A stretch of DNA of 64,000 nt from the IMG/VR virus record IMGVR_UViG_3300046804_003503, positions 1 through 64,000 of that record; one strand, given 5' to 3'. This stretch comes from a virus. Positions 803 to 11,852 of this stretch are shown piece after piece. The notes beneath the pieces were generated by a model, which did not search any database, was not told the origin of the DNA, and was given only the letters and a program-made list of their open reading frames with translations. Numbering within the stretch: position 1 is the stretch's first letter; every line of letters begins with the position of its first letter. The translations under genes were made by a program, and so were the position numbers.

Positions 803-832
803 GCCCATAACCTTAAAAATATTTTTTTAGTT

Positions 833-913
833 CTAAGTCGTTTGCTGGTAAGGGTTTAGAAGCAAGGGGGCGGGCCGCGTTTCTCCTAAGTCGTTATTTT
901 CAAAGGATTTAGG
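833..913 (-). repeat. Tri-palindrome boundary element, copy A
   Basis: Two imperfect inverted repeats of the CCTAAGTCCTTA / TAAGGGTTTACG type (833-859 and 885-913) flank a GC-rich core, GGGCGGGCCGCG at 868-879. This copy has the core in the opposite orientation to the other seven. Its right arm overlaps the last nine codons of the gene at 886-1296. Confidence 0.7.
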
Positions 914-1296
914 ATACCATTCCTACATTCGTTGTAGTATACGCCTTTAGGTGTAAGGTAGAGAGTGTCAAATGCAAAACCGTCAATGTTTCTTCCTGAC
1001 CAAGTATGCCAGTAAGGAAGTTTCCTAGGGTCATACTTTAGGTGCGTACACCAAGAGGGAATCTCTTTATCGAAGTTATGAATGACGCCCTTACACTTGA
1101 TCCATGCACAGACATCCTTATTAGCCCCCATATAAATCTTGTCTGCCACATTACGATTGTTATGCAGCACACAGTTATTGAGGGTGATTATTCCATCATT
1201 AGGATTTACATACCATACGTCCTTAGTTTTAGTATCCTTGAACTGCCAGTGCTTATAATGCTGGCCTTCTTGCAAATGATAGCGTACCTTGATCAT
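886..1296 (-). CDS. Hypothetical phage protein, 136 aa
   Basis: A 136-residue protein of unknown function, rich in Tyr, Trp, Asn and Cys, without an obvious membrane segment. The ATG overlaps the stop of the upstream Api92-like gene by four bases (ATGA), and a GGAGG-type site lies inside the end of that gene, so the two are translationally coupled. It is the last gene of the operon from about 2300; its final codons form part of repeat copy A. Confidence 0.75.
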   Translation of the reverse strand: MIKVRYHLQEGQHYKHWQFKDTKTKDVWYVNPNDGIITLNNCVLHNNRNVADKIYMGANKDVCAWIKCKGVIHNFDKEIPSWCTHLKYDPRKLPYWHTWSGRNIDGFAFDTLYLTPKGVYYNECRNGILNPLKITT

Positions 1297-1766
1297 GCTT
1301 CTTCCTCCATCATCTCAAAGAACTCATCCAAGCCGAAGTCATTCCACACACCTACTGGAATACTATCCTTATCATCGCCATAGTCAATGTAGTTATCATA
1401 GCCGTCATGGTAAATACCACAGAATCCCATTCCCGGCTCAAAATAACTGGCGTGAACATTATATCCCAGTTCTACCAGATGGTTATAGAAGTCAATAGGT
1501 GGCGACCATGCTGTGTTAGGAGCAACACAAACTTCATACTTATCGCCGTTCTGCTTGACAGTAACGGGTTCATCAAAGTTCTTATCAAGTCCAAAGTCCC
1601 ACTTGGTTCCCCAGTTAGAGACATTCCAAGAGTACCAATCTTCTTCTGGCGGCTTGGGAATAAACTGTTCGCACACTGCTCCAGTATTCCATGCGTCAGC
1701 AAACTTCTGAACCATATCCTTATCGGTATGGGAAACGGTCAGAGTGTTCATGCACCAGTTAGGCAT
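1293..1766 (-). CDS. Api92/YubB-like ferredoxin-fold protein
   Basis: 157 residues with the characteristic N-terminus MPNWCMNTLTV, matching the small phage and plasmid family with a ferredoxin-like domain described for Api92 and YubB. Family members begin M-x-N-W-C-x-N and carry aromatic-rich motifs around a Trp-Gly pair, as here (NWGTKWDF near residue 52). The molecular role of the family is unknown. The start overlaps the stop of the zinc-ribbon mini-gene upstream, and its own stop overlaps the next start, so this is a tightly coupled operon. Acidic C-terminus. Confidence 0.85.
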   Translation of the reverse strand: MPNWCMNTLTVSHTDKDMVQKFADAWNTGAVCEQFIPKPPEEDWYSWNVSNWGTKWDFGLDKNFDEPVTVKQNGDKYEVCVAPNTAWSPPIDFYNHLVELGYNVHASYFEPGMGFCGIYHDGYDNYIDYGDDKDSIPVGVWNDFGLDEFFEMMEEEA

Positions 1767-1914
1767 AGATATCCCTTTCTTCTTCTACGTTGTCTGAACC
1801 ACAATCCATACATTGACAGTTATCATACGGGCCACCAACAACATTACCATCTTGGTCAACCCAAGCATCCCATCCAATGTTGTCGCTTTCGCAATCTTGA
1901 CATACCATGCTCAT
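1759..1914 (-). CDS. 51-aa zinc-ribbon protein
   Basis: A mini-gene with two CxxC knuckles (C5-x2-C8 and C35-x2-C38) separated by a Trp- and Asp-rich middle, a typical small zinc ribbon; a metal-binding role is inferred from the cysteine spacing. The ATG overlaps the stop of the gene at 1911-2099 by four bases, with GGAG eight bases upstream. Its stop overlaps the start of the Api92-like gene. Similar small proteins pairing CxxC motifs around a short aspartate-rich segment are common in phage genomes, with no known function. Confidence 0.8.
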   Translation of the reverse strand: MSMVCQDCESDNIGWDAWVDQDGNVVGGPYDNCQCMDCGSDNVEEERDIYA

Positions 1915-2099
1915 ACATCATACTCCTTACGCCACTGCTTGTCAATAGCACCACGGGTACGTTGACGCTTGGGGCGATTATCGAACACCGTATCCCGATG
2001 CTCTTGGTGTCCCTGACGGATTTCCCAAGGCATAACTTTCTTGATTTTGATTACGTTGCGGCGTGGCCGCATATCGTCGTTGTTGTGGAGGGTAATCAT
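1911..2099 (-). CDS. Small basic hypothetical protein, 62 aa
   Basis: A 62-residue, strongly basic protein with an RPKRQRTRG patch near the C-terminus; nucleic-acid binding is possible but unproven. GGA lies about nine bases before the ATG. It is coupled to the downstream zinc-ribbon gene by an ATGA overlap. Its first 41 codons overlap the end of the membrane-anchored frame at 1978-2304 in another register, so one of the two may be shorter than written. A promoter at 2166-2193 would serve it. Confidence 0.6.
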   Translation of the reverse strand: MITLHNNDDMRPRRNVIKIKKVMPWEIRQGHQEHRDTVFDNRPKRQRTRGAIDKQWRKEYDV

Positions 2100-2304
2100 A
2101 CCATATTCCGTTTTCGTGTTGATAGTAAACCTTGTCAGTGTTAGGATCGTAAGCCATTAGACAGTATTGTATAGGATAGTTTGTTTTTGTCAAGACCTCG
2201 TTTTGAGATATTGACGGGATTTTTATATTGCCATTTTGAACGTCCTTGAAGCCCGTATACACCAATCCACAAATCGTGATGATCACGCCAATCCACTGAA
2301 TCAT
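1978..2304 (-). CDS. Membrane-anchored hypothetical protein, 108 aa
   Basis: An N-terminal hydrophobic helix (residues 4-19, WIGVIITICGLVYTGF) suggests a signal anchor, followed by a polar Tyr/Gln/Asn-rich tail. I chose the ATG at 2304 because AAGGAG lies about ten bases upstream; an in-frame ATG at 2325 would put that site inside the coding sequence. The C-terminal third overlaps the gene at 1911-2099 by 122 bases and looks low in complexity. A promoter lies within this gene (2166-2193), and an internal ATG at 2157 sits at its predicted start site. Confidence 0.6.
   Translation of the reverse strand: MIQWIGVIITICGLVYTGFKDVQNGNIKIPSISQNEVLTKTNYPIQYCLMAYDPNTDKVYYQHENGIWYDYPPQQRRYAATPQRNQNQESYALGNPSGTPRASGYGVR
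2166..2193 (-). promoter_or_regulatory. Sigma-70-type promoter inside a gene
   Basis: Reading leftward: TTGACA (2193-2188), 16-bp spacer, TACAAT (2171-2166). Predicted start near 2159, two bases before an in-frame ATG at 2157. It could make a leaderless short product or simply serve the operon 2099-886. Confidence 0.5.
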
Positions 2305-2357
2305 GATGCCTTTCTCCTTTTTCATATAAGGATTATCGACATTCTGTTCTAGAAACT

Positions 2358-2549
2358 TTAGGCTGGCTGACTATCCCCCACAAAATGATCTTGGTTATTT
2401 GGGTGGTACACCACCTTGTATTCTACAGTCCGCTCAACCCACACATTTTGCCCATATTGCTCAGTTGCCCTAAGATACGCATCGAACTGGCTAGCAGACG
2501 ATACATATCCCGCAAACCGGTTATTCTTCCAGACTCTCCAAATATACAT
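2358..2549 (-). CDS. Hypothetical protein, 63 aa
   Basis: A 63-residue protein beginning MYIWRVWKNN, Tyr/Trp/Val-rich, family not recognised. An in-frame ATG exists upstream at 2597, but the promoter at 2570-2597 would start RNA near 2563, and AGGAG lies ten bases before the ATG at 2549; these fix the start at 2549. It stands alone between repeat copy B and the membrane-protein gene. Confidence 0.7.
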   Translation of the reverse strand: MYIWRVWKNNRFAGYVSSASQFDAYLRATEQYGQNVWVERTVEYKVVYHPNNQDHFVGDSQPA

Positions 2550-2569
2550 ACCTTGTCTCCTATGCAAGT

Positions 2570-2597
2570 ATCGTACCATACCTATCGGCACTGTCAA
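2570..2597 (-). promoter_or_regulatory. Sigma-70-type promoter with CGATA in the spacer
   Basis: Reading leftward: TTGACA (2597-2592), 16-bp spacer containing GCCGATA, TACGAT (2575-2570). It serves the gene at 2549 and decides that gene's start. Confidence 0.65.
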
Positions 2598-2613
2598 GAA
2601 AAAACTTTAGGTT

Positions 2614-2694
2614 GTAAGTCTATATTTGATAAGGGTTTACGTCAAATCTCCCCGGCCCCGTTCGCCGTAACTCTAATAGCGACAAGGGTTTACG
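2614..2694 (-). repeat. Tri-palindrome boundary element, copy B
   Basis: Left arm 2614-2641, degenerate GC core 2649-2660, right arm 2666-2694 ending TTTACG. The stop codon of the gene at 2695 abuts the element exactly. Confidence 0.7.
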
Positions 2695-2922
2695 TCACAT
2701 TGTCCAACCGGCTTCTGCCGCGACCAGTTTAGTAGGGATTACAATAGTGTCAGGTTTTGCTGTGGCATAATCTTTCATACCACGCTCGTCAATATAAAAA
2801 TATTCATCTAATATGTCAAACTTATTAGTCTCACCTAGTGCTACTACCGCAGCCTCAAGTGGAGTTTTATCTGTAGAGTAGATAAGTTCTAGCGTGTTAG
2901 ACTTAATGTAATACTTACACAT
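2695..2922 (-). CDS. Hypothetical protein, 75 aa
   Basis: An acidic 75-residue protein, family not recognised. It starts at MCKYYIKSNTLELIYS and overlaps the end of the gene upstream (stop at 2915) by eight bases, with AGGG about a dozen bases before the ATG. Its stop touches repeat copy B, so it closes the operon that begins at 4352. Confidence 0.7.
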   Translation of the reverse strand: MCKYYIKSNTLELIYSTDKTPLEAAVVALGETNKFDILDEYFYIDERGMKDYATAKPDTIVIPTKLVAAEAGWTM

Positions 2923-3427
2923 GGCAGCAACCGCCCTTTCTGCAAGTGATACAGTAGCAACGATCTTCGTTCACTACGCTCTCATCTCCAGTATCGATAC
3001 ACACCATAACGTCTACTCCGTTACGTTTGACGAAGCCTACATTACCGGCATGATTATCTCCAAAACTAAATCCATGTTCTTCCATTTCGTTAGTAAGATT
3101 GCTAATCTCATACTCATAATCATCTTCTATACCTTCACGATCACAACAGTAGCAACCATTACCGGGACAGCAGATTAGTTCCGCGATTTCAGTAATGAAT
3201 CCCCAGTGAGTTAGACTACCATCACTCTTACGCACACGCCCGACTTGACTATAAACATACGGGGCGAGATTATACATAGACAGTTCTACTTGATTAGTAT
3301 GGGCAATCTCTGCACTATCTTTACTATCAAATATTTTAAATCCACGATCCTTATACCCCTTGAGTTTATGGAACGCGGAAGCACAACCCATACCGCTACG
3401 CTTCTTAACGATAGTATACATATTCAA
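2915..3427 (-). CDS. Cys-rich protein with kinase-like catalytic-loop motif
   Basis: 170 residues. Towards the C-terminus the segment DNHAGNVGF followed 13 residues later by ID-T-G resembles the HxxN catalytic loop and DFG-like metal site of kinase-fold proteins, as seen in several small phage proteins. The N-terminal half contains GCASAFHKLKGYKDRGFKIF and lacks a convincing glycine loop. Clusters of Cys (around residues 86-95 and at the extreme C-terminus) may bind metal. Similarity to kinases is a motif-level inference; the protein is much shorter than a real kinase. It overlaps its operon neighbours on both sides by a few bases. Confidence 0.65.
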   Translation of the reverse strand: MNMYTIVKKRSGMGCASAFHKLKGYKDRGFKIFDSKDSAEIAHTNQVELSMYNLAPYVYSQVGRVRKSDGSLTHWGFITEIAELICCPGNGCYCCDREGIEDDYEYEISNLTNEMEEHGFSFGDNHAGNVGFVKRNGVDVMVCIDTGDESVVNEDRCYCITCRKGGCCHV

Positions 3428-3639
3428 CCCCCAAGGCTAATCATAAGGTTTTTATCAATACCTTCTGGCACAGCATATTCACAAATATGAGCAACAGTTT
3501 CTGGAGTTACCAATGTATCATCATTAGTTCCCCAACTAACATCACTCTCTAGCAGTTCATCCAGAACATAATCATAATCCCAATCGGCATAGTCACAAAA
3601 GTCTCTAAGTGTAACGCAAGTATATGTAAAGGTTTCCAT
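3424..3639 (-). CDS. Acidic hypothetical protein, 71 aa
   Basis: A 71-residue acidic protein with aromatic clusters (DYADWDYDYVLDELLES) that may form a helical, DNA-mimic-like surface; this is only an impression from composition. AGGA precedes the ATG, and the end overlaps the next start by four bases. Middle gene of the operon 4352-2695. Confidence 0.7.
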   Translation of the reverse strand: METFTYTCVTLRDFCDYADWDYDYVLDELLESDVSWGTNDDTLVTPETVAHICEYAVPEGIDKNLMISLGG

Positions 3640-3647
3640 ATTTATCC

Positions 3648-4352
3648 TTAGTGAGAGGGAAAAAGAACGTTAGCCAAACCCTTGACGCACAGATTACAGT
3701 CTACACTACCCTTAGTCGGTGTGCAAGTCACAATCCCACGACCACGACGGATTTCTGGGCAAGTGATAAACTTTTCGCCGTCAAGAATCACCAGTTTCGG
3801 GAGACTCTTACGCCACGCTTCCGCCGCAGCCTTACGCTTGGGGCGTTTCTTTGCAATCTTCTCGTCGCTATCGCACCATGCGAACAGTTTGAAACCGGCG
3901 AGTGATGCCGTAGCCTTATCATTAGCGTTATGCACACTAGCATATACATTCATATACTTTTCCATAGCCACAAGGCGACTATCGTAGATATGCGTATAAA
4001 ACCACATATCGGGAAGTGTAGTACCATCGGCAAGAATACTCTCGCAAGCCCACACTACATTATCAACGTAGTCGGTGTCAAGTTTACCGTCGAGGAACCA
4101 ATCACCACGCTCATGCCAGCGAATAGACTTACCTTGACGAATAGCGTCGAGAATCATAGAGCGAATGCGGCCACGCTCAGTGATTACATTCTGCATACCA
4201 GCAGGACGCACGTTAGGATACATCTTCTCGGTTTGCTCTGCATAGCAACCGTTACCCAAAAATGCACACGTTGACGGGCAAGTATCACCAACTGGCCTAG
4301 AAACGACCAAGCAACCCTTGCCTAACTTATCATTACCGTTTGCGACTTTCAT
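3648..4352 (-). CDS. Gp88-type cysteine-rich phage protein, 234 aa
   Basis: A cysteine-patterned protein resembling the Gp88-type family of phages, whose function is unknown. N-terminal CPSTCAFLGNGCYAE gives Cys25, Cys29 and Cys36; the C-terminus adds a second group (TCPEIRRGRG, TCTPT, DCNLC). Together these could hold a metal ion or an Fe-S cluster, which I infer only from spacing. The middle has an RWHERGDWF motif typical of the family. I start at the ATG at 4352 because GGGAG lies six bases upstream and the promoter at 4376-4403 would begin RNA near 4369, excluding the in-frame GTG at 4373. First gene of its operon. Confidence 0.8.
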   Translation of the reverse strand: MKVANGNDKLGKGCLVVSRPVGDTCPSTCAFLGNGCYAEQTEKMYPNVRPAGMQNVITERGRIRSMILDAIRQGKSIRWHERGDWFLDGKLDTDYVDNVVWACESILADGTTLPDMWFYTHIYDSRLVAMEKYMNVYASVHNANDKATASLAGFKLFAWCDSDEKIAKKRPKRKAAAEAWRKSLPKLVILDGEKFITCPEIRRGRGIVTCTPTKGSVDCNLCVKGLANVLFPSH

Positions 4353-4375
4353 AACTTTCTCCCTTGTGTTCACCG

Positions 4376-4403
4376 ATTCTACACTCTATATCGGCACTGT
4401 CAA
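4376..4403 (-). promoter_or_regulatory. Sigma-70-type promoter with CGATA in the spacer
   Basis: Reading leftward: TTGACA (4403-4398), 16-bp spacer containing GCCGATA, TAGAAT (4381-4376). Drives the operon 4352-2695. Confidence 0.7.
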
Positions 4404-4433
4404 GGGGAAATATTTAGAAAATCTTTGGCATGG

Positions 4434-4485
4434 AAAACGCGGCCCGCCCCGTTGTTCCTAAATACTTGCTAGATAAGGACTTACG
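4434..4485 (-). repeat. Tri-palindrome boundary element, copy C (left arm missing)
   Basis: GC core CGCGGCCCGCCCC at 4438-4450 and right arm 4457-4485 (CCTAAATACTT / AAGGACTTACG). In place of the left arm stands a TTTGGCA half-site (4424-4430). It separates the tRNA cluster from the promoter at 4376. Confidence 0.7.
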
Positions 4486-4490
4486 ACGAG

Positions 4491-4563
4491 TGACCCTACG
4501 GGGATTCGAACCCCGATAAACGGAACGAAAATCCGTTGTCCTAAACCGTTAGACGATAGGGCC
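4491..4563 (-). tRNA. tRNA-Glu (anticodon TTC)
   Basis: Full cloverleaf of 73 nt: acceptor GGCCCTA pairs with TAGGGTC (one G-U), anticodon loop TTTTCGT, T-arm GGTTCGAATCC. CCA is not encoded. Last of four tandem tRNAs. Confidence 0.95.
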
Positions 4564-4566
4564 AAA

Positions 4567-4638
4567 CTGGCAAAATAGGATTCGAACCTATAACCTAGCG
4601 GTTAACAGCCGCTTGCACTACCGTTGTGCTATTTGCCA
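4567..4638 (-). tRNA. tRNA-Asn (anticodon GTT)
   Basis: 72-nt cloverleaf: acceptor TGGCAAA / TTTGCCA, anticodon stem AGCGG / CCGCT with loop CTGTTAA, T-arm GGTTCGAATCC. CCA not encoded. Confidence 0.95.
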
Positions 4639-4641
4639 ATA

Positions 4642-4712
4642 TTACGGGACTAGGATTCGAACCTAGACAGAAAGGACCAAAATCTTTCGTGCTACCGTTA
4701 CACCATCCCGTA
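4642..4712 (-). tRNA. tRNA-Gln (anticodon TTG)
   Basis: 71-nt cloverleaf: acceptor TACGGGA / TCCCGTA, anticodon loop TTTTGGT closed by an A-C mismatch below a GAAAG / CTTTC stem, T-arm GGTTCGAATCC. CCA not encoded. Confidence 0.92.
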
Positions 4713-4784
4713 AGCCGACAACAGGACTTGAACCTGTAACCTACTGATTACAAATCAGTGGCTCTACCATTGAGCTATATCGGC
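4713..4784 (-). tRNA. tRNA-Thr (anticodon TGT)
   Basis: 72-nt cloverleaf: acceptor GCCGATA / TGTCGGC (with one G-U), anticodon stem ACTGA / TCAGT with loop TTTGTAA, T-arm GGTTCAAGTCC. CCA not encoded. First of the tandem tRNAs, directly after a small gene. Confidence 0.95.
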
Positions 4785-4796
4785 AACCACCGCAAC

Positions 4797-4943
4797 TCAA
4801 ACGTCAGCCTCCGAAGCATAAATATTGTACCACTCATTGCTATCGTCATATACGATAATATCTCGCTCATCATCGCCAATGAGTTCTTCGTATTCTTCTT
4901 GATCGTATGGGCCGCACCACTTCATGACGTTTTCGTTATACAT
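4797..4943 (-). CDS. Acidic mini-protein, 48 aa
   Basis: A short gene starting at MYNENVMKWCGPYDQEEY, with a strongly acidic, aromatic composition and no recognised family. CCGGA lies just upstream of the ATG, and the promoter at 4976-5004 starts RNA about 25 bases before it. The stop is only 13 bases before the 5' end of tRNA-Thr, so this gene and the four tRNAs are likely co-transcribed and separated by tRNA processing. Confidence 0.7.
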   Translation of the reverse strand: MYNENVMKWCGPYDQEEYEELIGDDERDIIVYDDSNEWYNIYASEADV

Positions 4944-4975
4944 GGTATTCCGGGAGGTTAGAGGATGGTTTATCT

Positions 4976-5004
4976 ATTATACTTTATACACGCTACTTTG
5001 TCAA
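4976..5004 (-). promoter_or_regulatory. Sigma-70-type promoter for the mini-gene and tRNA cluster
   Basis: Reading leftward: TTGACA (5004-4999), 17-bp spacer, TATAAT (4981-4976), both perfect consensus. It overlaps the last codons and stop of the nuclease gene at 4993. No CGATA word. Confidence 0.75.
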
Positions 5005-5406
5005 GACTTTTTCCAAAAGATAATCGGCGGCATCATGCACATTTTTGCTTTGATTATTCTTAGACGGTATTTTTCTTAATGCAAAAGAGCTAGTATATTC
5101 TGATAATATCTTATCTGGAACTAGGTATACCTTTCCATCCTCTAAATCTACAATACCAAAAAAATCAAATATACCCTGTTCATATATATAATGATAGTTT
5201 GGCCCACTTTTCTTAACTGATAATGTCAGAGTATTATTTTTTGGTGTTATTGCTTTTGATTGTATCCTTATTAGTTTTCCATCTTTTTCTGCGATGATGT
5301 CTATCTTTGATATATCCCCTTCCTCAGTAAAAACTGAGTATCCTAATCTAGATAGTTCTAATGCTATTGCAAACTGACCTATATTCCCTTTTCTCTTACT
5401 GTGCAT
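4993..5406 (-). CDS. PD-(D/E)XK nuclease-like protein, 137 aa
   Basis: Small nuclease of the PD-(D/E)XK fold. The visible pattern is KGNIGQFAIALELSRLGYSVF, then a Gly-Asp-Ile-Ser-Lys-Ile-Asp acidic position and an IRIQSK motif, matching the E...D...(E/Q)xK core of the PDDEXK_5-type family that includes archaeal Holliday-junction resolvases and intron-encoded enzymes. Here Gln takes the place of the usual Glu, as in many of these families. The start at 5406 is chosen for AAGGAG seven bases upstream. It lies between the tRNA-Lys gene and the tRNA cluster. DNA substrate unknown; it could be a resolvase, a free-standing mobile endonuclease or a degradation enzyme. Confidence 0.75.
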   Translation of the reverse strand: MHSKRKGNIGQFAIALELSRLGYSVFTEEGDISKIDIIAEKDGKLIRIQSKAITPKNNTLTLSVKKSGPNYHYIYEQGIFDFFGIVDLEDGKVYLVPDKILSEYTSSFALRKIPSKNNQSKNVHDAADYLLEKVLTK

Positions 5407-5462
5407 AATATTCTCCTTAAGTAGCGGATTCATTGTCCGTTACTATATTATACACAAAATAA

Positions 5463-5535
5463 TGGGTCATGTAGGACTCGAACCTACGGCCAAAGAGTTA
5501 AAAGCTCCTTGCTCTACCAACTGAGCTAATGACCC
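5463..5535 (-). tRNA. tRNA-Lys (anticodon TTT)
   Basis: 73-nt cloverleaf: acceptor GGGTCAT / ATGACCC, anticodon loop CTTTTAA on an AGGAG / CTCTT stem, T-arm GGTTCGAGTCC. CCA not encoded. It has its own promoter at 5592-5619. Confidence 0.95.
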
Positions 5536-5591
5536 AAAATACGGGTGTCTGCCATACTCGACTGTCTTTTATCTATGGCTTCTTTGATATC

Positions 5592-5619
5592 ATTCTACCA
5601 TAGACCCGTATGTTGTCAA
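5592..5619 (-). promoter_or_regulatory. Sigma-70-type promoter for tRNA-Lys
   Basis: Reading leftward: TTGACA (5619-5614), 16-bp spacer, TAGAAT (5597-5592). The stop codon of the upstream gene (5618-5616) lies inside the -35 hexamer. Confidence 0.65.
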
Positions 5620-5849
5620 CTGTCTAAATCTTCGTCATTATCCTCAATATGGGAGGTAAGATCGTCCACAATATTCTCAATATATTCTACATATTCTTCG
5701 TCAGAGTGATTCTCTAGCCACTGATCCATGAGTTCATATGCCATAATGTCCTGCAAATACATAGTGATATCTTCGGGCCACTCATGAAATGGCTTCTTGA
5801 TAACGCTCTTGATTTCTTTACTCGTATACGTCCCAAATATATTACTCAT
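5616..5849 (-). CDS. Acidic hypothetical protein, 77 aa
   Basis: A 77-residue acidic, probably helical protein ending in a run of Asp and Glu, family not recognised. The ATG overlaps the end of the upstream gene by eight bases with AGGA as ribosome site, and the stop codon forms part of the -35 box of the tRNA-Lys promoter. Confidence 0.7.
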   Translation of the reverse strand: MSNIFGTYTSKEIKSVIKKPFHEWPEDITMYLQDIMAYELMDQWLENHSDEEYVEYIENIVDDLTSHIEDNDEDLDS

Positions 5850-6039
5850 TTTTCAATCCTGTAGAAATATCCTCTGGCGCCCATGCGGCAGTTGAGTACG
5901 CAAGCACACCATCCCTTGTAATCTGTGCTATGTATATGTCAATATCTCCATCTCCATCACCTAGGGCAATACTCAGGGCATTATCTTCTTCAATAAGAAC
6001 AGCAGTTTTGCCATTAGAAAGTTTAACAAAGTGTTTCAT
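5842..6039 (-). CDS. Hypothetical protein, 65 aa
   Basis: A 65-residue beta-rich protein (MKHFVKLSNGKTAVLIEEDN) of unknown function. AGGAG precedes the ATG at 6039, and the promoter at 6065-6093 excludes an in-frame ATG at 6066. Translationally coupled to the acidic gene that follows. Confidence 0.7.
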   Translation of the reverse strand: MKHFVKLSNGKTAVLIEEDNALSIALGDGDGDIDIYIAQITRDGVLAYSTAAWAPEDISTGLKNE

Positions 6040-6064
6040 ATTTTCTCCTAACGTATGTATCGAC

Positions 6065-6093
6065 ATTCTACCTTAAAAAGTTTAGTTTGTCAA
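6065..6093 (-). promoter_or_regulatory. Sigma-70-type promoter with CGATA after the -10 box
   Basis: Reading leftward: TTGACA (6093-6088), 17-bp spacer, TAGAAT (6070-6065), followed directly by GTCGATA. Confidence 0.7.
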
Positions 6094-6105
6094 GTGTACC
6101 GTTTC

Positions 6106-6270: not shown

Positions 6271-6271
6271 A

Positions 6272-6559: not shown

Positions 6560-6594
6560 CTTTTCACTCTCTTTCTTCTACTTCTAATATCGAC

Positions 6595-6623
6595 ATTCTA
6601 CCACTGGAACTTTAGCCTGTCAA
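6595..6623 (-). promoter_or_regulatory. Sigma-70-type promoter with CGATA after the -10 box
   Basis: Reading leftward: TTGACA (6623-6618), 17-bp spacer, TAGAAT (6600-6595), then GTCGATA immediately downstream. Confidence 0.7.
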
Positions 6624-6651
6624 GCAGAAAATAAAAGATTTTTTGATTTGT

Positions 6652-6733
6652 CGTAAAGTGTTGTGGCGTAAGGGTTTACGTTGAACGCGGCCCGCCCGCC
6701 TAGCCCTAAACCCTTGTCCCGTAAGGACTTAGG
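6652..6733 (-). repeat. Tri-palindrome boundary element, copy D
   Basis: Left arm 6652-6680, core GCGGCCCGCCC at 6687-6697, right arm 6705-6733 (CCTAAACCCTT / AAGGACTTAGG). It lies between the stop at 6769 and the promoter at 6595-6623. Confidence 0.75.
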
Positions 6734-6768
6734 ATTAGGGTCTAGGTTGTCGGGTTAGTTAGTGTACA

Positions 6769-7173
6769 TCAGAACAGATATGCTACACCCATGTTATAAA
6801 GCAAGTTACCAACCGCTGTACGCTTGCACATATCACTACGCTCTGCATAAAACTGGCGATAGTCACCGTTGCTCATCTTACATGTAACAAGCGTAGGTGA
6901 ACGATGGAAGTTCTTATCATATTGACGGTAATCGCTCGTCCAGTTCAAACGCGAGATTTCAGCCTGCGTCAGATTACGAATATCAACAACCTTTGCAAGA
7001 TAACGCTCATAATCACCACTCAATGGTTGGAAGTATCGAAAGTTATATACAGAACCAATAACAGCATTAGCAAGGCTATCATGCACACCCCTATAGACGT
7101 TATAGAGAAAGAAAACAGCAACCGCCGCAGCGGCACAAGCAACAATCACACCAACCGTAAACGCATCATTCAT
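6769..7173 (-). CDS. Single-pass membrane protein, 134 aa
   Basis: An N-terminal hydrophobic helix (about residues 5-26, VGVIVACAAAAVAVFF) is followed by a soluble domain of about 105 residues rich in Tyr, Arg and Asn, so the topology is probably N-anchored. No family recognised. AAGGAG precedes the ATG. The promoter at 7211-7239 serves it alone, and repeat copy D follows it. Confidence 0.75.
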   Translation of the reverse strand: MNDAFTVGVIVACAAAAVAVFFLYNVYRGVHDSLANAVIGSVYNFRYFQPLSGDYERYLAKVVDIRNLTQAEISRLNWTSDYRQYDKNFHRSPTLVTCKMSNGDYRQFYAERSDMCKRTAVGNLLYNMGVAYLF

Positions 7174-7210
7174 ACCTAATCAACTCCTTAGTGGGTAAAC
7201 CTTTTCAACC

Positions 7211-7239
7211 ATTGTACACTAGTTATCGGCCAGTGTCAA
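7211..7239 (-). promoter_or_regulatory. Sigma-70-type promoter with CGATA in the spacer
   Basis: Reading leftward: TTGACA (7239-7234), 17-bp spacer containing GCCGATAA, TACAAT (7216-7211). The stop codon of the upstream gene (7238-7236) is inside the -35 hexamer. Confidence 0.7.
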
Positions 7240-7565
7240 GCCTCAACTTCAACATTTTCCAGAAGATTACTAGCGATTTCTCGCCAGTTAGTTTCACTCA
7301 GTGCCGCACCAAGCAAATCAGCCCAAAGGCTAGAAGTCAACTTCATATTCTCAAGGATTTCATCCTTAGCCTCTTCATGATCTTCTTTCAACTTATCTGC
7401 CAGAATATAAATAGCATCATCCATTTTAGAAAAATGCTTTTGCTCTTCCGCACGATGCTTGTAAATATACTCTGCGATACCAACCCAGTGATCGCGTGAG
7501 CCTTGCTCATTGTCAATCCACAGATTTACAACCCACGTTTCGTAGTTAGTATATCCGTTATACAT
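7236..7565 (-). CDS. NYETW-family protein, 109 aa
   Basis: The N-terminus NGYTNYETWVVNLWIDNEQG identifies a widespread small family found in phages, plasmids and bacteria, followed by an all-helical, acidic body. Its function is unknown. The start overlaps the stop of the Asp-rich gene (TGATG), with GGAG inside that gene, so it depends on upstream translation. The stop codon is embedded in the next promoter. Confidence 0.8.
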   Translation of the reverse strand: MYNGYTNYETWVVNLWIDNEQGSRDHWVGIAEYIYKHRAEEQKHFSKMDDAIYILADKLKEDHEEAKDEILENMKLTSSLWADLLGAALSETNWREIASNLLENVEVEA

Positions 7566-7810
7566 CAGAAATCATCTCCATAGTAATCGTGGAAAGCGTC
7601 GATATCATCACCATAGGAACCGTAATCCTCATCGGTTCCCCAACCGGCGGAAGTCATCGCGGAGTCATGATCGCCGTCCATGCTATCATCATAGTAATCG
7701 TCACGGTGGCTTTCATAGTCATCGTTGAAATCACAGAAATCATCATAGTTATCGTTCATATCATCCTCATAAGAGTTAGCGGGATCGAAACAGGGGTCAG
7801 GGTGACTCAT
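7565..7810 (-). CDS. Extremely Asp-rich protein, 81 aa
   Basis: About a third of the 81 residues are Asp or Glu, mostly Asp, in repeats such as DDYYDDSMDGDHDS interleaved with Tyr, Gly and Ser, and there is almost no Lys. Such a protein would be disordered and highly negative. A DNA-mimic or metal-buffering role is conceivable but not shown. AGAGGAG lies upstream; the ATG overlaps the stop of the preceding gene by four bases. Confidence 0.7.
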   Translation of the reverse strand: MSHPDPCFDPANSYEDDMNDNYDDFCDFNDDYESHRDDYYDDSMDGDHDSAMTSAGWGTDEDYGSYGDDIDAFHDYYGDDF

Positions 7811-7986
7811 ACAGTATACTCCTCTGGAATGAAATCGTCAACAGCACCAACAATATCCGCCCAATCCCAAAAGTTGACTTCCACGCTGGGATCGTCAATC
7901 GGCTCGACCATCGGCTCGACCGACTCATTCGCGGCCAGTTCAGCGAGGATGGCGTTGATCGCGTCGGTATCTTCAAAGATGCTCAT
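7807..7986 (-). CDS. Acidic hypothetical protein, 59 aa
   Basis: A short acidic gene beginning MSIFEDTDAINAILAELAAN, with two VEP repeats in the middle and a WDWADIVGAVDDF helix near the end. GGGAG precedes the ATG at 7986. First gene of the operon 7986-7236, all three members being acidic and overlapping. Confidence 0.7.
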   Translation of the reverse strand: MSIFEDTDAINAILAELAANESVEPMVEPIDDPSVEVNFWDWADIVGAVDDFIPEEYTV

Positions 7987-8012
7987 TTCATTTCTCCCTT
8001 GGTGATGCTCTG

Positions 8013-8040
8013 ATTCTACACCTATTATCGGCTACGTCAA
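8013..8040 (-). promoter_or_regulatory. Sigma-70-type promoter with CGATA in the spacer
   Basis: Reading leftward: TTGACG (8040-8035), 16-bp spacer containing GCCGATAA, TAGAAT (8018-8013). Drives the acidic operon. Confidence 0.65.
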
Positions 8041-8091
8041 GCCCCAACCTACAAATATTTTTTCTTAAAAAGATGACAGGATTCTGGCTAC

Positions 8092-8133
8092 TTTTGGCAC
8101 ATGACTTGCTATGTAGCAAATACCATGCCAAAA
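8092..8133. repeat. GCAAAT...TGCCAAA dyad
   Basis: Imperfect palindrome: TTTTGGCA and TTGCTA (8092-8111) mirrored by TAGCAA and TGCCAAAA (8114-8133). It occupies the place of the left arm of repeat copy E, just upstream of the promoter at 8013-8040. Confidence 0.65.
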
Positions 8134-8135
8134 AA

Positions 8136-8187
8136 CGGCGGCGGCCCGCCCCGTTCGTCGTAAACCCTTGTCAGATATAGAGTTACG
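8136..8187 (-). repeat. Tri-palindrome boundary element, copy E (left arm replaced)
   Basis: GC core GCGGCCCGCCCCGTTCG at 8141-8157 and right arm 8159-8187 ending GTTACG. The stop codon of the mini-gene at 8188 abuts it, as in copy B. Confidence 0.7.
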
Positions 8188-8271
8188 TCAACTGTTCACA
8201 ATCCAAGCTGCCACGCATCCCACCGCAAACGACACCGCTAGTGTAATCTTGTCCAGTGTACACATATTCAT
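8188..8271 (-). CDS. Tiny membrane protein, 27 aa
   Basis: A 27-residue frame, MNMCTLDKITLAVSFAVGCV and seven more residues, forming one hydrophobic helix. The ATG overlaps the stop of the preceding tiny membrane gene by four bases, and AAGGAAG lies just upstream. The arrangement argues that it is real; the function is unknown. Confidence 0.5.
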   Translation of the reverse strand: MNMCTLDKITLAVSFAVGCVAAWIVNS

Positions 8272-8375
8272 TTCTTCCTTATTGGAAAAACAAGATCAGA
8301 AACAAACCAAACGCAAACAATACCAAAAACAAGTCCCACACCAAAACTGTTCCAATCTATAAACATATCTGCCAT
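8268..8375 (-). CDS. Tiny membrane protein, 35 aa
   Basis: A 35-residue frame with a single long hydrophobic segment (residues 11-31, FGVGLVFGIVCVWFVSDLVF) and a basic tail, RKK. AAGGAG lies about six bases before the ATG. Followed by an overlapping second membrane mini-gene. A pair of one-helix proteins invites a comparison with lysis or superinfection-exclusion peptides, but nothing specific supports that. Confidence 0.55.
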   Translation of the reverse strand: MADMFIDWNSFGVGLVFGIVCVWFVSDLVFPIRKK

Positions 8376-8390
8376 CCTTGGCTCCTTACT

Positions 8391-8690
8391 TTATGAAACT
8401 AAAATGTTATCTTCGAACGGAGTACCATCACTCAAAAACCAATCAAAGTTTTTTTGGTAAACTCGCACGGGAGAATACTGGTTAATACGCTTTTTCGTGG
8501 TGTGCGTATGATAACCGCCACTATTCAACTTTACAAGCCCGTTAGGATAAAACCGCACAACGGTAGTACCATGCAGGCGGATAGAAACGCTCTTATCATA
8601 TTCGATTTCAGCGTAGGTATTATTTCCAACCTTGCGGGTATTCTTGTTAGTCTTACCACGAACCATAGCAACGGCTTCAAGATAGTTCAT
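8391..8690 (-). CDS. Conserved phage protein of unknown function, 99 aa
   Basis: Belongs to a common small phage family recognised by NTYAEIEYDKSVSIRLHGT, then a central NGLVKLNSGGYHT and TTKKRIN, with an aromatic QKNFDWFLSDG end. The fold and role are unknown. It is served by the promoter at 8725-8752 and probably co-transcribed with the two tiny membrane genes that follow. Confidence 0.8.
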   Translation of the reverse strand: MNYLEAVAMVRGKTNKNTRKVGNNTYAEIEYDKSVSIRLHGTTVVRFYPNGLVKLNSGGYHTHTTKKRINQYSPVRVYQKNFDWFLSDGTPFEDNILVS

Positions 8691-8724
8691 TTTTCTTTTT
8701 CCTTTGGTTACTACTTATATCGGT

Positions 8725-8752
8725 ATTCTACAGCCTAGACTTTAAAAGTCAA
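8725..8752 (-). promoter_or_regulatory. Sigma-70-type promoter with CGATA after the -10 box
   Basis: Reading leftward: TTGACT (8752-8747), 16-bp spacer, TAGAAT (8730-8725), followed by ACCGATA. Confidence 0.6.
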
Positions 8753-8866
8753 CAACAAAATACAATATTCTCGCTGACTATCTCGCAAGGTTTATGATCC
8801 GGCCACTTTGGCCGAGACTCCCCATCTTCTCCAAACCCCCTAGATTGCCTATCTTACCAAAACCCC

Positions 8867-9196
8867 CTATTCGTCGTAGAACGCGGAGACTTCCTGCCCT
8901 GCGGCTGCGAACATTTCATACATAGCCCGCAAAGCCTCTACCCTCTCACGGCTTCCCGGTTTGCCCACCTTGTCAATCATGAGATCGCTACCCCCCATTA
9001 GGCGGGGATCGACGTTTTCCTTGCTCTTACCCCTCTTTCGGAGTAATGCTTTCCGATTGAACTTGAGAACCTTTTCGGAGCGAATCGGGCCATACTCCCC
9101 ACTGGCGAGGGATGGCTGGTGAGGGATGGCGATTCCCAAAAAACAGGATCGTGCTTGACGCTTTGCATCTTCGATGATTTTGAACTTGGTAGCCAT
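8867..9196 (-). CDS. Basic hypothetical protein, 109 aa
   Basis: A 109-residue protein with a strongly basic middle (NRKALLRKRGKSKENVDPRL) and a helical C-terminus; RNA or DNA binding is possible. AAGGAAAAAGAAA precedes the ATG. Base composition here is richer in G and C than in the genes to the right. Family not recognised. Confidence 0.7.
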   Translation of the reverse strand: MATKFKIIEDAKRQARSCFLGIAIPHQPSLASGEYGPIRSEKVLKFNRKALLRKRGKSKENVDPRLMGGSDLMIDKVGKPGSRERVEALRAMYEMFAAAGQEVSAFYDE

Positions 9197-9221
9197 TTTC
9201 TTTTTCCTTGGGTGAGTGTGG

Positions 9222-9249
9222 ATTCTATCAAACTTTTCCGCCGCCGCAA
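9222..9249 (-). promoter_or_regulatory. Possible promoter, AAAAGTTT-spacer class
   Basis: Reading leftward: TTGCGG (9249-9244), 16-bp spacer with GGAAAAGTTT, TAGAAT (9227-9222). The same spacer word occurs at 9410-9438 and 10280-10308, and none of these three carries CGATA. The -35 is weak. Confidence 0.4.
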
Positions 9250-9256
9250 CCCCCCT

Positions 9257-9388
9257 TTAGCGGGAGTTCATGAATCGCTCCGCTTCGTGCGAAGTCTTGA
9301 ACGATCCCAACAGCACACGCTTTCCGTTTCCGCACTCGCGGTATACCTTAAACTTGTTTCCGACTACGATGATCGTCATGGTTTCCAT
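9257..9388 (-). CDS. 43-aa protein, paralogue of the gene at 11144
   Basis: METMTIIVVGNKFKVYRECG leads into NGKRVLLGSFKTSHEAERFMNSR. The gene at 11144-11275 encodes the same length with the same framework (METLT, NGKR, LLGSFKTS-EAERFMN), so the two are duplicates. A short beta strand pair plus a helix is likely; role unknown. The start at 9388 is chosen because AAAGGAA lies six bases upstream. Confidence 0.75.
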   Translation of the reverse strand: METMTIIVVGNKFKVYRECGNGKRVLLGSFKTSHEAERFMNSR

Positions 9389-9409
9389 TTTCATTTCCTT
9401 TGTTTTTAG

Positions 9410-9438
9410 AGTCTATCAAACTTTTCCCGCCGCCGCAA
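9410..9438 (-). promoter_or_regulatory. Possible promoter, AAAAGTTT-spacer class
   Basis: Reading leftward: TTGCGG (9438-9433), 17-bp spacer with GGAAAAGTTT, TAGACT (9415-9410). It would serve the 43-aa gene at 9388. Confidence 0.4.
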
Positions 9439-9444
9439 CCCCCC

Positions 9445-9579
9445 TTATTCGGGGATCGGCCAGATTTGAATATCGGCCTCACAGTGTTCACCACACTGGG
9501 GACAAACGCCATGCTCGGCGTGAATCGGGGTCATTTCAGCCCCACAGCAATCGGACACGATCAGGATATCATTCATCAT
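9445..9579 (-). CDS. Cys-rich zinc-ribbon mini-protein, 44 aa
   Basis: A 44-residue frame with Cys11-Cys12 and a CPQCGEHC cluster (Cys26, Cys29, Cys33), fitting a small zinc ribbon. GAGAG lies just before the ATG. The stop lies a few bases beyond the -35 of the promoter at 9410-9438. Confidence 0.65.
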   Translation of the reverse strand: MMNDILIVSDCCGAEMTPIHAEHGVCPQCGEHCEADIQIWPIPE

Positions 9580-10065
9580 CTTTCACTCTCACTTTCTTAT
9601 GCCATATATAAGAGCAATCGGTGTGCCAATCATAGATTATTTTTTTTTGCGTATTTCGCGGGAAAAACGCTATGACATTTTTTGTGCCTAGATTTTGAGC
9701 GTAGCATTTTGCAACACCCTGTAGCATTTTGCGTTAGTGATTTCCGCCGTGAAACTGAGGTAATGTAGCAATATGCAACGGGTTGCCTATCTTACCATGC
9801 CCATATTCTAGGCGTTGAGATTTTTTATTCCGTGGCACGATATTTGCTGTGGCCCTAAACACCACTTCGATACGATCATATGATTAGATGTAAGTCTATA
9901 TGCCATAAGGGTTTACGGCAAACGCGGCCCGCCCCGTTCGCCCTAAGTCCTTATCCTGCAAGCATTTACGTTAACTCTCTACGCAAAGCCCATACCAATC
10001 CGCCGCAGAGCAAACGGTGTGCCAATCACCGCTGCCTGCAAACGGTATGCCAAAGAATATTTTTC
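9580..10065. other. 486-bp intergenic regulatory stretch
   Basis: No credible gene. It holds GCAATCGGTGTGCCAA (9613-9628), two copies of GTAGCATTTTGC (from about 9703 and 9722), the 15-mer TTGCCTATCTTACCA (9783-9797, also at 8845-8859), an inverted half-site GGCACGATATTTGC (9834-9847), repeat copy F, and two more GCAAACGGT(G/A)TGCCAA motifs at 10010-10025 and 10038-10054. No strong promoter was found; TTGGCA and TATATA words near 9600-9625 are a weak candidate for the gene at 9579. Confidence 0.6.
9889..9970 (-). repeat. Tri-palindrome boundary element, copy F
   Basis: Left arm 9889-9917, core AACGCGGCCCGCCCCGTT at 9921-9938 (an AACG...CGTT stem), right arm 9942-9970. It is preceded by ATCATATGAT (9877-9886), which also occurs in copy H and, altered, in copy G. 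Confidence 0.75.
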
Positions 10066-10248
10066 TCAGGCAAACTCCTCTTCCCCGTAGTAATCCCAAT
10101 CGGCATCCTCTTCCTCTTCCATCCATTCTCCATCGTCAAGGCCGGGGATGTAGTCGGCCTCACCTTCCTCGCTGTTCAGTTCTTCCCAGCCCAGCATGAT
10201 TTCCTCTTCGTTGATTTCCGACATATCGTAGACAAAATCGTTGGTCAT
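10066..10248 (-). CDS. Highly acidic protein, 60 aa
   Basis: About 45 percent of residues are Asp or Glu, with EEEIMLGWEELNSEEGEAD and an EEEEDADWDYYGEEE tail. GGGGAAAATC precedes the ATG at 10248; an in-frame ATG at 10308 lies in the promoter (10280-10308) and is excluded. Function unknown; another member of the acidic small-protein set in this arm. Confidence 0.7.
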   Translation of the reverse strand: MTNDFVYDMSEINEEEIMLGWEELNSEEGEADYIPGLDDGEWMEEEEDADWDYYGEEEFA

Positions 10249-10279
10249 GATTTTCCCCTTGAAGTGAAGTGATGGATGG

Positions 10280-10308
10280 ATTCTACCGAAACTTTTCCGC
10301 CCCGTCAA
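10280..10308 (-). promoter_or_regulatory. Promoter, AAAAGTTT-spacer class
   Basis: Reading leftward: TTGACG (10308-10303), 17-bp spacer with GCGGAAAAGTTT, TAGAAT (10285-10280). It decides the start of the acidic gene at 10248. Confidence 0.55.
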
Positions 10309-10315
10309 TCCCCTC

Positions 10316-10540
10316 TCATCGGGGGATCGTGATATGACCGCTGGTACGGTCGAAAGTCAGTGTCAGAACCTGACCCGGATACTTGTTGTCGATATACCGC
10401 TGTGCGGTACTCTTTCGATTGTCCGTAGCCGAAACACACTGAACAATCGTACCGTTCTCATCCGTAACCCGCCAAATCTTCTTGGCGACGATTCGCGGAA
10501 GGCTGTTGATGAAGTCGTTAACGTGAGTAACCTTTTCCAT
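10316..10540 (-). CDS. Hypothetical protein, 74 aa
   Basis: A 74-residue protein with predicted strand-helix-strand order: IWRVTDENGTIVQCVSAT, then a helix with TAQRYIDNKYPG, then VLTLTFDRTSGHITI. It begins MEKVTHVNDFINSLPR. A purine-only leader (GAAAGAAAGAGAAAGAAA) precedes the ATG and may act as ribosome site and unstructured leader. Family not recognised. Confidence 0.75.
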   Translation of the reverse strand: MEKVTHVNDFINSLPRIVAKKIWRVTDENGTIVQCVSATDNRKSTAQRYIDNKYPGQVLTLTFDRTSGHITIPR

Positions 10541-10568
10541 TTTCTTTCTCTTTCTTTCTTATGCTCTT

Positions 10569-10596
10569 ATTATACCATACTTATCGGCCAAGTCAA
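10569..10596 (-). promoter_or_regulatory. Sigma-70-type promoter with CGATA in the spacer
   Basis: Reading leftward: TTGACT (10596-10591), 16-bp spacer containing GCCGATAA, TATAAT (10574-10569). Serves the gene at 10540. Confidence 0.7.
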
Positions 10597-10718
10597 TAGG
10601 CAATCTGAAATATTTTTGAAAATAATCTTGTGCCAAAACAAGAAATATTCTCTAGAGCAAATCCCGTGCCAAATATTTTATTTTTTTAAACAGAAGATCT
10701 TGTCGATCATCATATTAG

Positions 10719-10803
10719 TCCTAAGTCCTTACGCCATAAGGGTTTACGACGAACGCGGCCCGCCCGATTTGCCCTAAGTCCTTACTGTATAAGGATTTAC
10801 GTC
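10719..10803 (-). repeat. Tri-palindrome boundary element, copy G
   Basis: Best-preserved copy. Left arm CCTAAGTCCTTA / TAAGGGTTTACG, core GAACGCGGCCCGCCC at 10751-10765, right arm CCTAAGTCCTTA / TAAGGATTTACG ending at 10801. Confidence 0.8.
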
Positions 10804-10813
10804 AAGTATCTAG

Positions 10814-10851
10814 GCAAATACCATGCCGCGATTTTTTGGCACAGTATTTGC
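10814..10851. repeat. GCAAAT...TGCCAAA dyad
   Basis: GCAAATACCATGCC (10814-10827) and GGCACAGTATTTGC (10838-10851) pair at 12 of 14 positions around a 10-base AT-rich centre. Confidence 0.7.
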
Positions 10852-10903
10852 TACTGCTCCCCTCCTGCTAGGGGTGTGCCTTATCCGCGTGGATGGTGTG
10901 ATA

Positions 10904-11092
10904 CTACTTGGCGTGAATGAACACCCGTTCACTTACTGTACGGTTGGTCACTGTCACGATCCAGTTCTTTCCACTACCATCCTCTCGCATGATAGAGTTG
11001 ATAATACCTACATGAGCGTTACCCTTCGGGTCGATAACGCTACCATACTTACCAGTACGCATAGCAGATAGAATCTTGTCAAGGCTATTCAT
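10904..11092 (-). CDS. Hypothetical protein, 62 aa
   Basis: A 62-residue, mildly basic, beta-rich protein beginning MNSLDKILSAMRTGKYGSVI; the rest has a small-barrel look (HVGIINSIM, WIVTVTNRTVSERVFI). GTGAAAAGAAA precedes the ATG. Family not recognised. A weak promoter is proposed at 11119-11147. Confidence 0.7.
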   Translation of the reverse strand: MNSLDKILSAMRTGKYGSVIDPKGNAHVGIINSIMREDGSGKNWIVTVTNRTVSERVFIHAK

Positions 11093-11118
11093 TTTCTTTT
11101 CACTTAGTGTTAGTTATA

Positions 11119-11147
11119 TTTTTACTAGATATTTATCGACCTATCAA
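11119..11147 (-). promoter_or_regulatory. Weak promoter with CGATA in the spacer
   Basis: Reading leftward: TTGATA (11147-11142), 17-bp spacer containing GTCGATAA, TAAAAA (11124-11119). The stop codon of the 43-aa gene (11146-11144) is inside the -35 hexamer. Confidence 0.4.
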
Positions 11148-11275
11148 GTGGCATTCATGAATCTTTCCGCCTCTGCGGAAGTCTTAAATGATCCAAGCAA
11201 CATACGCTTTCCGTTAGCCATTTCCCAATAAACCTTATACTTACCCTTCACGACGATCAGCGTTAGCGTTTCCAT
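11144..11275 (-). CDS. 43-aa protein, paralogue of the gene at 9257
   Basis: METLTLIVVKGKYKVYWEMA followed by NGKRMLLGSFKTSAEAERFMNAT. It aligns end to end without gaps with the gene at 9257-9388, so a small gene duplication has occurred within 2 kb. The codons have diverged to be more AT-rich, which suggests an old duplication or separate acquisition. Served by the promoter at 11300-11327. Confidence 0.75.
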   Translation of the reverse strand: METLTLIVVKGKYKVYWEMANGKRMLLGSFKTSAEAERFMNAT

Positions 11276-11299
11276 TTCTTTTTCCCTTGTGTTGATTCT

Positions 11300-11327
11300 A
11301 TTATACTTATCGGCTTTTGGTTGTCAA
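11300..11327 (-). promoter_or_regulatory. Sigma-70-type promoter with GCCGATAA next to the -10
   Basis: Reading leftward: TTGACA (11327-11322), 16-bp spacer ending GCCGATAAG, TATAAT (11305-11300). Both boxes are perfect. The CGATA word lies closer to the -10 here than in the other spacer-class promoters. Confidence 0.75.
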
Positions 11328-11364
11328 GGGCTTAAATCTTAATCTTTCGTAAGGTTGCCCCGTA

Positions 11365-11589
11365 TCATCCGCAAACGTTGTCGATTGCGAAATCTTCCAC
11401 AACATATCCCATTTCATCAATCCTAATATATCCACCATCTTCACCAACTTCGATTTCATACTCGTTATCCCGAGCATAATCGAAAAGATCCATTCCGAAC
11501 GCTGCGACATTCACCAGCGTATCGGGGCCATTGTTGTCAAGGTAAGAAACCAACTCACTCATCGTATTGAACACAACCAAGTTTCTCAT
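11365..11589 (-). CDS. Acidic hypothetical protein, 74 aa
   Basis: A 74-residue acidic protein starting MRNLVVFNTMSELVSYLDNN, with a mixed alpha/beta look (YEIEVGEDGGYIRIDEMGYV). It is the first minus-strand gene after the strand switch. A purine-only leader (GAGAGAAAGAAAGAGAGAAA) precedes the ATG, and the promoter at 11631-11658 is strong. Family not recognised. Confidence 0.75.
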   Translation of the reverse strand: MRNLVVFNTMSELVSYLDNNGPDTLVNVAAFGMDLFDYARDNEYEIEVGEDGGYIRIDEMGYVVEDFAIDNVCG

Positions 11590-11630
11590 TTTCTTTCTCT
11601 CTTTCTTTCTCTCTTACTTCTTATATCGAC

Positions 11631-11658
11631 ATTATACCATGCTTTCTTGAATCGTCAA
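11631..11658 (-). promoter_or_regulatory. Sigma-70-type promoter with CGATA after the -10 box
   Basis: Reading leftward: TTGACG (11658-11653), 16-bp spacer, TATAAT (11636-11631), then GTCGATA. Serves the gene at 11589. Confidence 0.7.
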
Positions 11659-11691
11659 GGGAAATCTTTCTTACAATATCGAAAGATTATA

Positions 11692-11745
11692 TATAGCAAA
11701 TATCATGCCAAGAAAAATATTTTGTTTGGTACAGAATATGCTATA
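11692..11745. repeat. GCAAAT...TGCCAA dyad
   Basis: TATAGCAAATATCATGCCAA (11692-11711) faces TTGGTACAGAATATGCTATA (11726-11745) around an AT-rich centre; most positions pair. A single further copy of the motif follows at 11748. Confidence 0.65.
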
Positions 11746-11806
11746 TAGCAAATGCCATGCCAAAACTCTTAAACAGTAGATCGTGTCGATCATATGATTA
11801 TCGTCG

Positions 11807-11852
11807 TAAGTCTATATGTAGTAAGGGTTTACGGCGAACGCGGCCCACCCCT
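11807..11852 (-). repeat. Tri-palindrome boundary element, copy H (right arm absent)
   Basis: Left arm 11807-11833 and core CGAACGCGGCCCACCCC from 11835, then the sequence departs from the repeat. It marks the right limit of the element family, at the strand switch. Confidence 0.65.

Follow-up and report, generated by a model that had tools for sequence, protein, structure and literature searches.

The subject of this analysis is a palindromic element of about 90 bases that recurs between the small genes of a phage's early arm. The DNA analysed, here called the window, comprises the initial 64 kb of the 161,058-base IMG/VR virus record IMGVR_UViG_3300046804_003503, a phage genome labelled G000. 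The two ends of the record share an identical 127 bases, which gives a circular assembly of 160,931 bases (160.9 kb); the record is a circular permutation, so its ends cut the early arm in two, and position 1 of the window lies inside it. The arm spans about 17 kb of leftward-transcribed small genes and has a GC content of 43-46%, against 35% for the genome. A profile search finds 11 copies of the element genome-wide, and every one falls in the stretch that runs from 155.9 kb across the junction to 11.9 kb. That the total is 11 rather than the eight of the window follows from the circularity of the record, as the arm continues at 155.9-160.9 kb. Read leftward, the arm repeats one layout: gene end, element, promoter, ribosome site, gene.

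Two dyads make up the element, with four half-sites TNGNCSTAARYCCTTR in all, and they flank a tract of only G and C. Eight copies in the window had been proposed in a preliminary description, and the sequences of all eight are present. The tri-partite plan it ascribed to them applies to the five full copies; the three others (4434-4485, 8136-8187 and 11807-11852) are conserved half copies with one dyad and the core. A GC-rich core is general, as had been said, with the refinements that the copy at 833-913 is inverted, its core lying on the minus strand, and that 2614-2694 carries the variant core CTCCCCGGCCCC. Allowing one mismatch at most, the core GCGGCCCGCCC is matched seven times in the window, where shuffles lead one to expect 0.05, and all seven fall within copies. 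The copies are listed below, followed by the promoters; scores in bits are from nhmmer, and distances run from the dyad centre to the -35 box.

830..914, minus strand: full element with the core on the minus strand; 60.3 bits; distance 44 bp to the promoter leftward at 775-802.
2611..2697, plus strand: full element with the variant GC core; 59.9 bits; distance 30 bp to the promoter at 2570-2597.
4430..4488, plus strand: half element (core and one dyad); 48.3 bits; about 4 nt from the 3' end of tRNA-Glu.
6650..6735, plus strand: full element; 69.8 bits; distance 43 bp to the promoter at 6595-6623.
8136..8190, plus strand: half element (core and one dyad); 41.8 bits; adjoins a TTGGCAYN5TTGCT dyad at 8094-8131.
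9887..9973, plus strand: full element; 80.2 bits.
10718..10804, plus strand: full element; 80.6 bits; dyads at 10720-10748 and 10773-10801, core at 10754-10764; promoter at 10569-10596.
11803..11856, plus strand: half element (one dyad and core); 46.0 bits; at the junction of the leftward arm and rightward genes.
775..802, minus strand: sigma-70-type promoter TTGACAGGACGATAATAGAGTGTACAAT.
2570..2597, minus strand: promoter TTGACAGTGCCGATAGGTATGGTACGAT.
4376..4403, minus strand: promoter TTGACAGTGCCGATATAGAGTGTAGAAT.
6595..6623, minus strand: promoter TTGACAGGCTAAAGTTCCAGTGGTAGAAT, followed by GTCGATA.
8013..8040, minus strand: promoter TTGACGTAGCCGATAATAGGTGTAGAAT.
10569..10596, minus strand: promoter TTGACTTGGCCGATAAGTATGGTATAAT.
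11631..11658, minus strand: promoter TTGACGATTCAAGAAAGCATGGTATAAT, followed by GTCGATA.

Two details of placement given in the preliminary description are borne out: most copies have a promoter to their left, and copies directly abut a stop codon at 2695 and 8188, the former being that of the ORF 2922-2695, which the copy at 2611..2697 adjoins. The half forms recur in relatives. At 4430..4488, TTTGGCATGG stands in place of the promoter-proximal dyad, and the same form is found in the relatives G001 and G003 and at the loci L136, L148 and L156; that of 11803..11856 also occurs at L016, L020, L126, L136 and others.

Pattern scans and a profile search of IMG/VR, relatives included, gave 297 copies, of which 216 are distinct in sequence and 183 are near full length, with about ten copies per phage and a range of 9-16 in one arm. 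In the better-covered records, the copies occupy the corresponding arm (17-33 kb in G001, 7-30 kb in G002 and 34-46.5 kb in G008). The order of full and half copies in G001 and G003 is largely that of G000, with orthologous genes between them. Copies are thus present at homologous gaps in relatives, and their absence there is what the preliminary description would have counted against the element. The contigs G006 and G007 hold partial copies only, in the last kilobases where the contigs end, and no relative with the arm but without the element was found. The copies have diverged strongly: 69 representatives below 72% identity remain among 181.

Throughout this divergence, the geometry is rigid. 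Each dyad is made of two 16-bp half-sites inverted about a 5-bp spacer of free sequence, and across 724 half-sites the TAA and TT are almost invariant. The dyad centres lie 53 bp apart, which is 5.05 turns at 10.5 bp per turn. In the tract between the dyads, about ten positions are each at least 90% G or C, while the exact bases differ among copies. A MAFFT alignment of 55 diverse, non-redundant copies has 89 columns and zero gaps; when 181 near-full copies are aligned, one column is mostly gap and the others have less than 1% gaps each. The core faces either way, with the promoter on its 5' side 55 times and on its 3' side 22 times.

The promoters linked to the element have TTGACA and TANNNT hexamers 15-18 bp apart, usually accompanied by a CGATA box that lies within the spacer or directly follows the -10 hexamer. 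Scanning for TTGAC-N16-19-TANNNT within 250 bp of the 183 near-full copies located a promoter on the 5' side of 98, on the 3' side of 34 and on both sides of two, compared with 13% of random windows. In most cases, the centre of the proximal dyad lies 29-80 bp upstream of TTGACA, and the -35 box is not overlapped. Measured from the nearest dyad centre to where TTGACA begins, the distance is far from uniform: it clusters at about 33, 43.5, 54 and 65 bp, values one turn of DNA apart. For 71 non-redundant sites, the Rayleigh statistic is R = 0.65 (p ~1e-13), with a best period of 11-11.25. Grouping by downstream protein leaves 44 families and gives R = 0.78 (p ~2e-12), and members of one gene family differ in spacing by steps of about one or two turns, such as 43-46 to 54 to 65-66. 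Spacings of 50-82 bp that were held out of the phase fit keep the phase (p 0.0005-0.0075, depending on the period), and promoters picked blind to the -35 box do so as well (R = 0.58, p ~1e-17, in a set that includes orthologues and was not thinned).

What, then, does the element do? Judged from its sequence and placement, we lean towards a site for a dimeric regulator that would act at sigma-70-type early promoters much as a class I activator does. Each dyad would bind one dimer of a sequence-specific protein, and a full element would carry two of these, aligned on one face of the helix at a separation of 53 bp, or five turns, across the GC-only tract. The promoter-proximal dyad would be centred at roughly -69, -80, -90 or -101 from the start site, so that the bound protein would face RNA polymerase always from the same side and might stimulate a host-type promoter through the alpha subunit, in a class-I-like manner. 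One factor, supplied by phage or host, could in this way drive many early operons together.

Several observations weigh against an activator. The start sites behind these positions are themselves inferred from the standard distance, and the resulting series is offset by about 2.5 bp from that of CRP at class I promoters. No TTGACA-type promoter was found within 250 bp of the copy at 9887..9973, which has a sigma-54-like motif 258 bp leftward, and the G000 copies at 8136, 10718 and 11803 lie 96-145 bp from their promoters, distances at which phase is difficult to assess. About 12 of the arm's promoter-like sites stand without an element. The -35 boxes beside elements are near consensus, with a mean of 5.4 of six matches, and boxes of this kind usually need little activation. 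Finally, a scan of 20 small or mid-sized proteins recognised no DNA-binding regulator domain.

The main rival keeps the DNA site and reverses the sign: a repressor or bridging protein would shut down the early promoters at a later stage of infection, for instance through loops between copies or through DNA wrapped over the GC tract. We regard it as possible but rather doubtful. The strength of the linked promoters fits it, as do the many sites in one arm, which suit bridging, and the two dyads five turns apart, which suit wrapping or looping; helical phase is needed for looping too. There is also a lone third dyad at 155862-155896, kept in G001 and G003, which overlaps a weak -35 box in a class-II-like position; as class II activators bind there, this dyad counts for the activator reading too. 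However, repressors usually bind the -35, -10 or start region, and the common arrangement places no dyad over any of these. No paired operator of the element sequence was seen downstream of the promoters, and the CGATA box at the promoters, of different sequence, is the better operator candidate.

This box occurs either as NCGATA in the spacer between -35 and -10 or as GTCGATAT just after -10, at 775-802, 2570-2597, 4376-4403, 8013-8040 and 10569-10596 as well as in relatives; it is likely to be a second operator, perhaps for a repressor. A further motif of the arm, TTGGCAYNNNNNTTGCT (TTGGCAYN5TTGCT), fits the sigma-54 promoter consensus. It has eight exact copies in the arm (8094-8110, 8115-8131, 9613-9629, 10009-10025, 10656-10672, 10836-10852, 11695-11711 and 11747-11763) where 0.05 are expected, and none in the other 143 kb. 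Sometimes it stands single, shortly before a gene without a TTGACA promoter, and sometimes it forms an inverted pair, so that it may represent either sigma-54 promoters or a second operator. The phased promoters are of the TTGACA/TANNNT type, with some sigma-54-like motifs nearby. We considered the element as a sigma-54 enhancer and set this aside as a side lead only, since some of the motifs are inverted pairs and neither the AAA+ activator domain PF00158 nor the sigma-54 domain PF04552 is found among the G000 proteins; the host may encode one.

Whether the site activates or represses is a much less firm matter than its being a site on DNA. The latter we consider nearly certain. Very unlikely, by comparison, is an RNA element folded from the palindromes, be it a terminator, an insulator or a 3'-end stabiliser. 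Its appeal is that the copies occupy gaps between operons, with a stop codon or tRNA end often adjacent, and that single sequences are able to fold into hairpins. Yet Watson-Crick pairs occur at or below the expectation of independence, in the dyad stems as well as in long-range alternatives: in the alignment of 55 copies, standard pairs fill 74.4% of stem cells against 76.8 +/- 0.6% after shuffling, with 500 of 500 shuffles at least as high. The alifold consensus of the same alignment contains zero pairs, and an alternative long hairpin likewise lacks covariation. Length does not vary across copies, even in the loops; absent covariation together with an unchanging loop length is the signature of a protein-binding site. 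The copies have no U-tract, as the preliminary description had pointed out, and Rfam gives no match besides tRNAs. The RNA stabiliser it had suggested therefore fails the covariation test that it had itself proposed, and an insulator or plain terminator would not predict helical phase to a downstream -35 box. Nothing speaks for its replication sites. Its regulator-binding site, by contrast, is well supported at the level of sequence by the rigid spacing, by conservation without covariation and by the phasing with promoters, so that its interpretation as a whole is partly supported.

Could the element instead serve DNA recombination, replication or partition, and lie in intergenic gaps by chance? 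Arm-spacer-arm dyads do resemble the core sites of recombinases, and similar palindromes occur at tRNA ends in bacteria. In about 85,000 bacterial and archaeal genomes, the strict form of the dyad was found at 22 places, with well under one expected by our estimate, and at 13 of the 22 a tRNA gene ends no more than about 25 bp upstream. A generalised form is present in 54 of 120 genomes from the family to which one termite-gut Treponema bin belongs, at up to six sites each, whereas a reversed-palindrome control had no match in those 120 genomes. It is not common in Planctomycetota, where the one positive among 99 genomes was already known. The Treponema palindromes mostly begin a few bases past the tRNA 3' end. 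Those of the type CSTAANTCCTTR-N5-YAAGGANTTASG (loci L173-L194 and L235-L272) follow a wide variety of tRNA genes by a few bases in termite-gut Treponema, and turn up here and there in other phyla; they mostly lack a U-tract and are often followed by a CTACCGG..CCGGCG inverted repeat. An integrase gene lies near the palindrome at two loci (L176 and L269), and at L270 a toxin-antitoxin-like pair is enclosed between two palindromes. The parallel in the phage is the half copy at 4430-4488 next to its tRNA.

For the phage, we reject a recombination site as highly improbable: no PF00589 integrase is found in G000, G001, G002 or G008, copies and genes keep their order even though the copies face both ways, and recombination offers no reason for phasing to the -35 box. 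The bacterial palindromes are near perfect, unlike those of the phage, though the search pattern itself favours perfect ones. The likeness may reflect a shared binding specificity or mere coincidence. Least probable of all are mobile promoter cassettes spread by homologous recombination, like the promoter-early stem-loops (PeSLs) of T4-like phages: the pairing of element and promoter where operons meet in a variable early region would suit them, but the copies are strongly diverged, tend to keep the same gaps in relatives and have no terminator stem.

The phage itself belongs to a large uncultured group. Its terminase has close relatives in hundreds of viral contigs and only distant cultured ones, the best at 25-28% identity (Microcystis phage MaeS and the Bacillus phages Slash, Staley, Stahl and Stills). 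Searches of the cultured-phage and plasmid collections found neither a blastn hit to the 90-bp element at E <= 1 nor a megablast hit to the 12-kb arm. No photosystem gene was found in the genome. Two features elsewhere were recorded in passing. At L011:251-4100 (genome 144.25-148.1 kb), CATTAGTTATTCTCCAAAT is repeated, reading leftward as ATTTGGAGAATAACTAATG, a near-identical block of ribosome site and start codon in at least seven places. At L008:9344-13203, DNA polymerase III alpha is split, with the PHP and NTPase domains in one frame, the finger domain in another and an ORF between them.

An activator site of the kind we favour would define a testable regulon, from sequence, in a large uncultured phage group without close cultured relatives. 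The natural spacing variants (33, 43.5, 54 and 65 bp) amount to a ready-made helical-phasing experiment and are, without laboratory work, strong evidence for a protein that acts on RNA polymerase. Naming this protein would tell an early regulator of the phage's own from one borrowed from the host. A bolder version, which we think unlikely, makes the element a new type of phage nucleoprotein enhancer: a pair of dimers, held rigidly at five turns' distance over the GC-only tract, would form an arm-wide switch at up to about 16 loci, with a specificity common to mobile elements at Treponema tRNA genes. If true, it would suggest that phages and mobile elements have traded a single DNA-binding family.

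Finally, we would like to place the element among known systems. The closest likeness is to class I activator sites, such as those of CRP at lac-type promoters, where a dyad also lies upstream of -35 at several distances one turn apart. In E. coli, CRP activates strongly from -61.5, -71.5 and -82.5, and activation is absent or minimal from -66.5 and -76.5 (PMC6301791). A different protein could explain the offset from this series. The element departs from class I sites in its four half-sites, its dyads fixed 53 bp apart around the GC-only tract, its 9-16 occurrences per arm and its sequence. Fis sites offer a second parallel, as several phased sites stand upstream of rRNA promoters that are already strong. 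Among phage activators, P2 Ogr and P4 Delta use an upstream dyad at several late promoters; theirs is a single dyad at a fixed position, at few promoters and of different sequence. PeSLs pair a repeated palindrome with an early promoter and lie intergenically in a variable region (PMC4503421). To that extent the element resembles them, being likewise followed by an early promoter and repeated between genes of a variable region, and it differs in having no conserved RNA stem or U-run, a rigid spacing and positions conserved in relatives. The stoperators of cluster A mycobacteriophages are monomer sites, 13 bp long and asymmetric, whose orientation follows transcription (PMC9283540, PMC6550527). 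They serve the immunity repressor of a temperate phage; as for a temperate life cycle here, the four records G000, G001, G002 and G008 yielded no tyrosine integrase. What stoperators share with the element is that a single regulator-binding sequence recurs many times in a phage genome, in the short gaps between genes; the element, however, is built of symmetric dyads in blocks of four half-sites that occur in both orientations and are phased to promoters.

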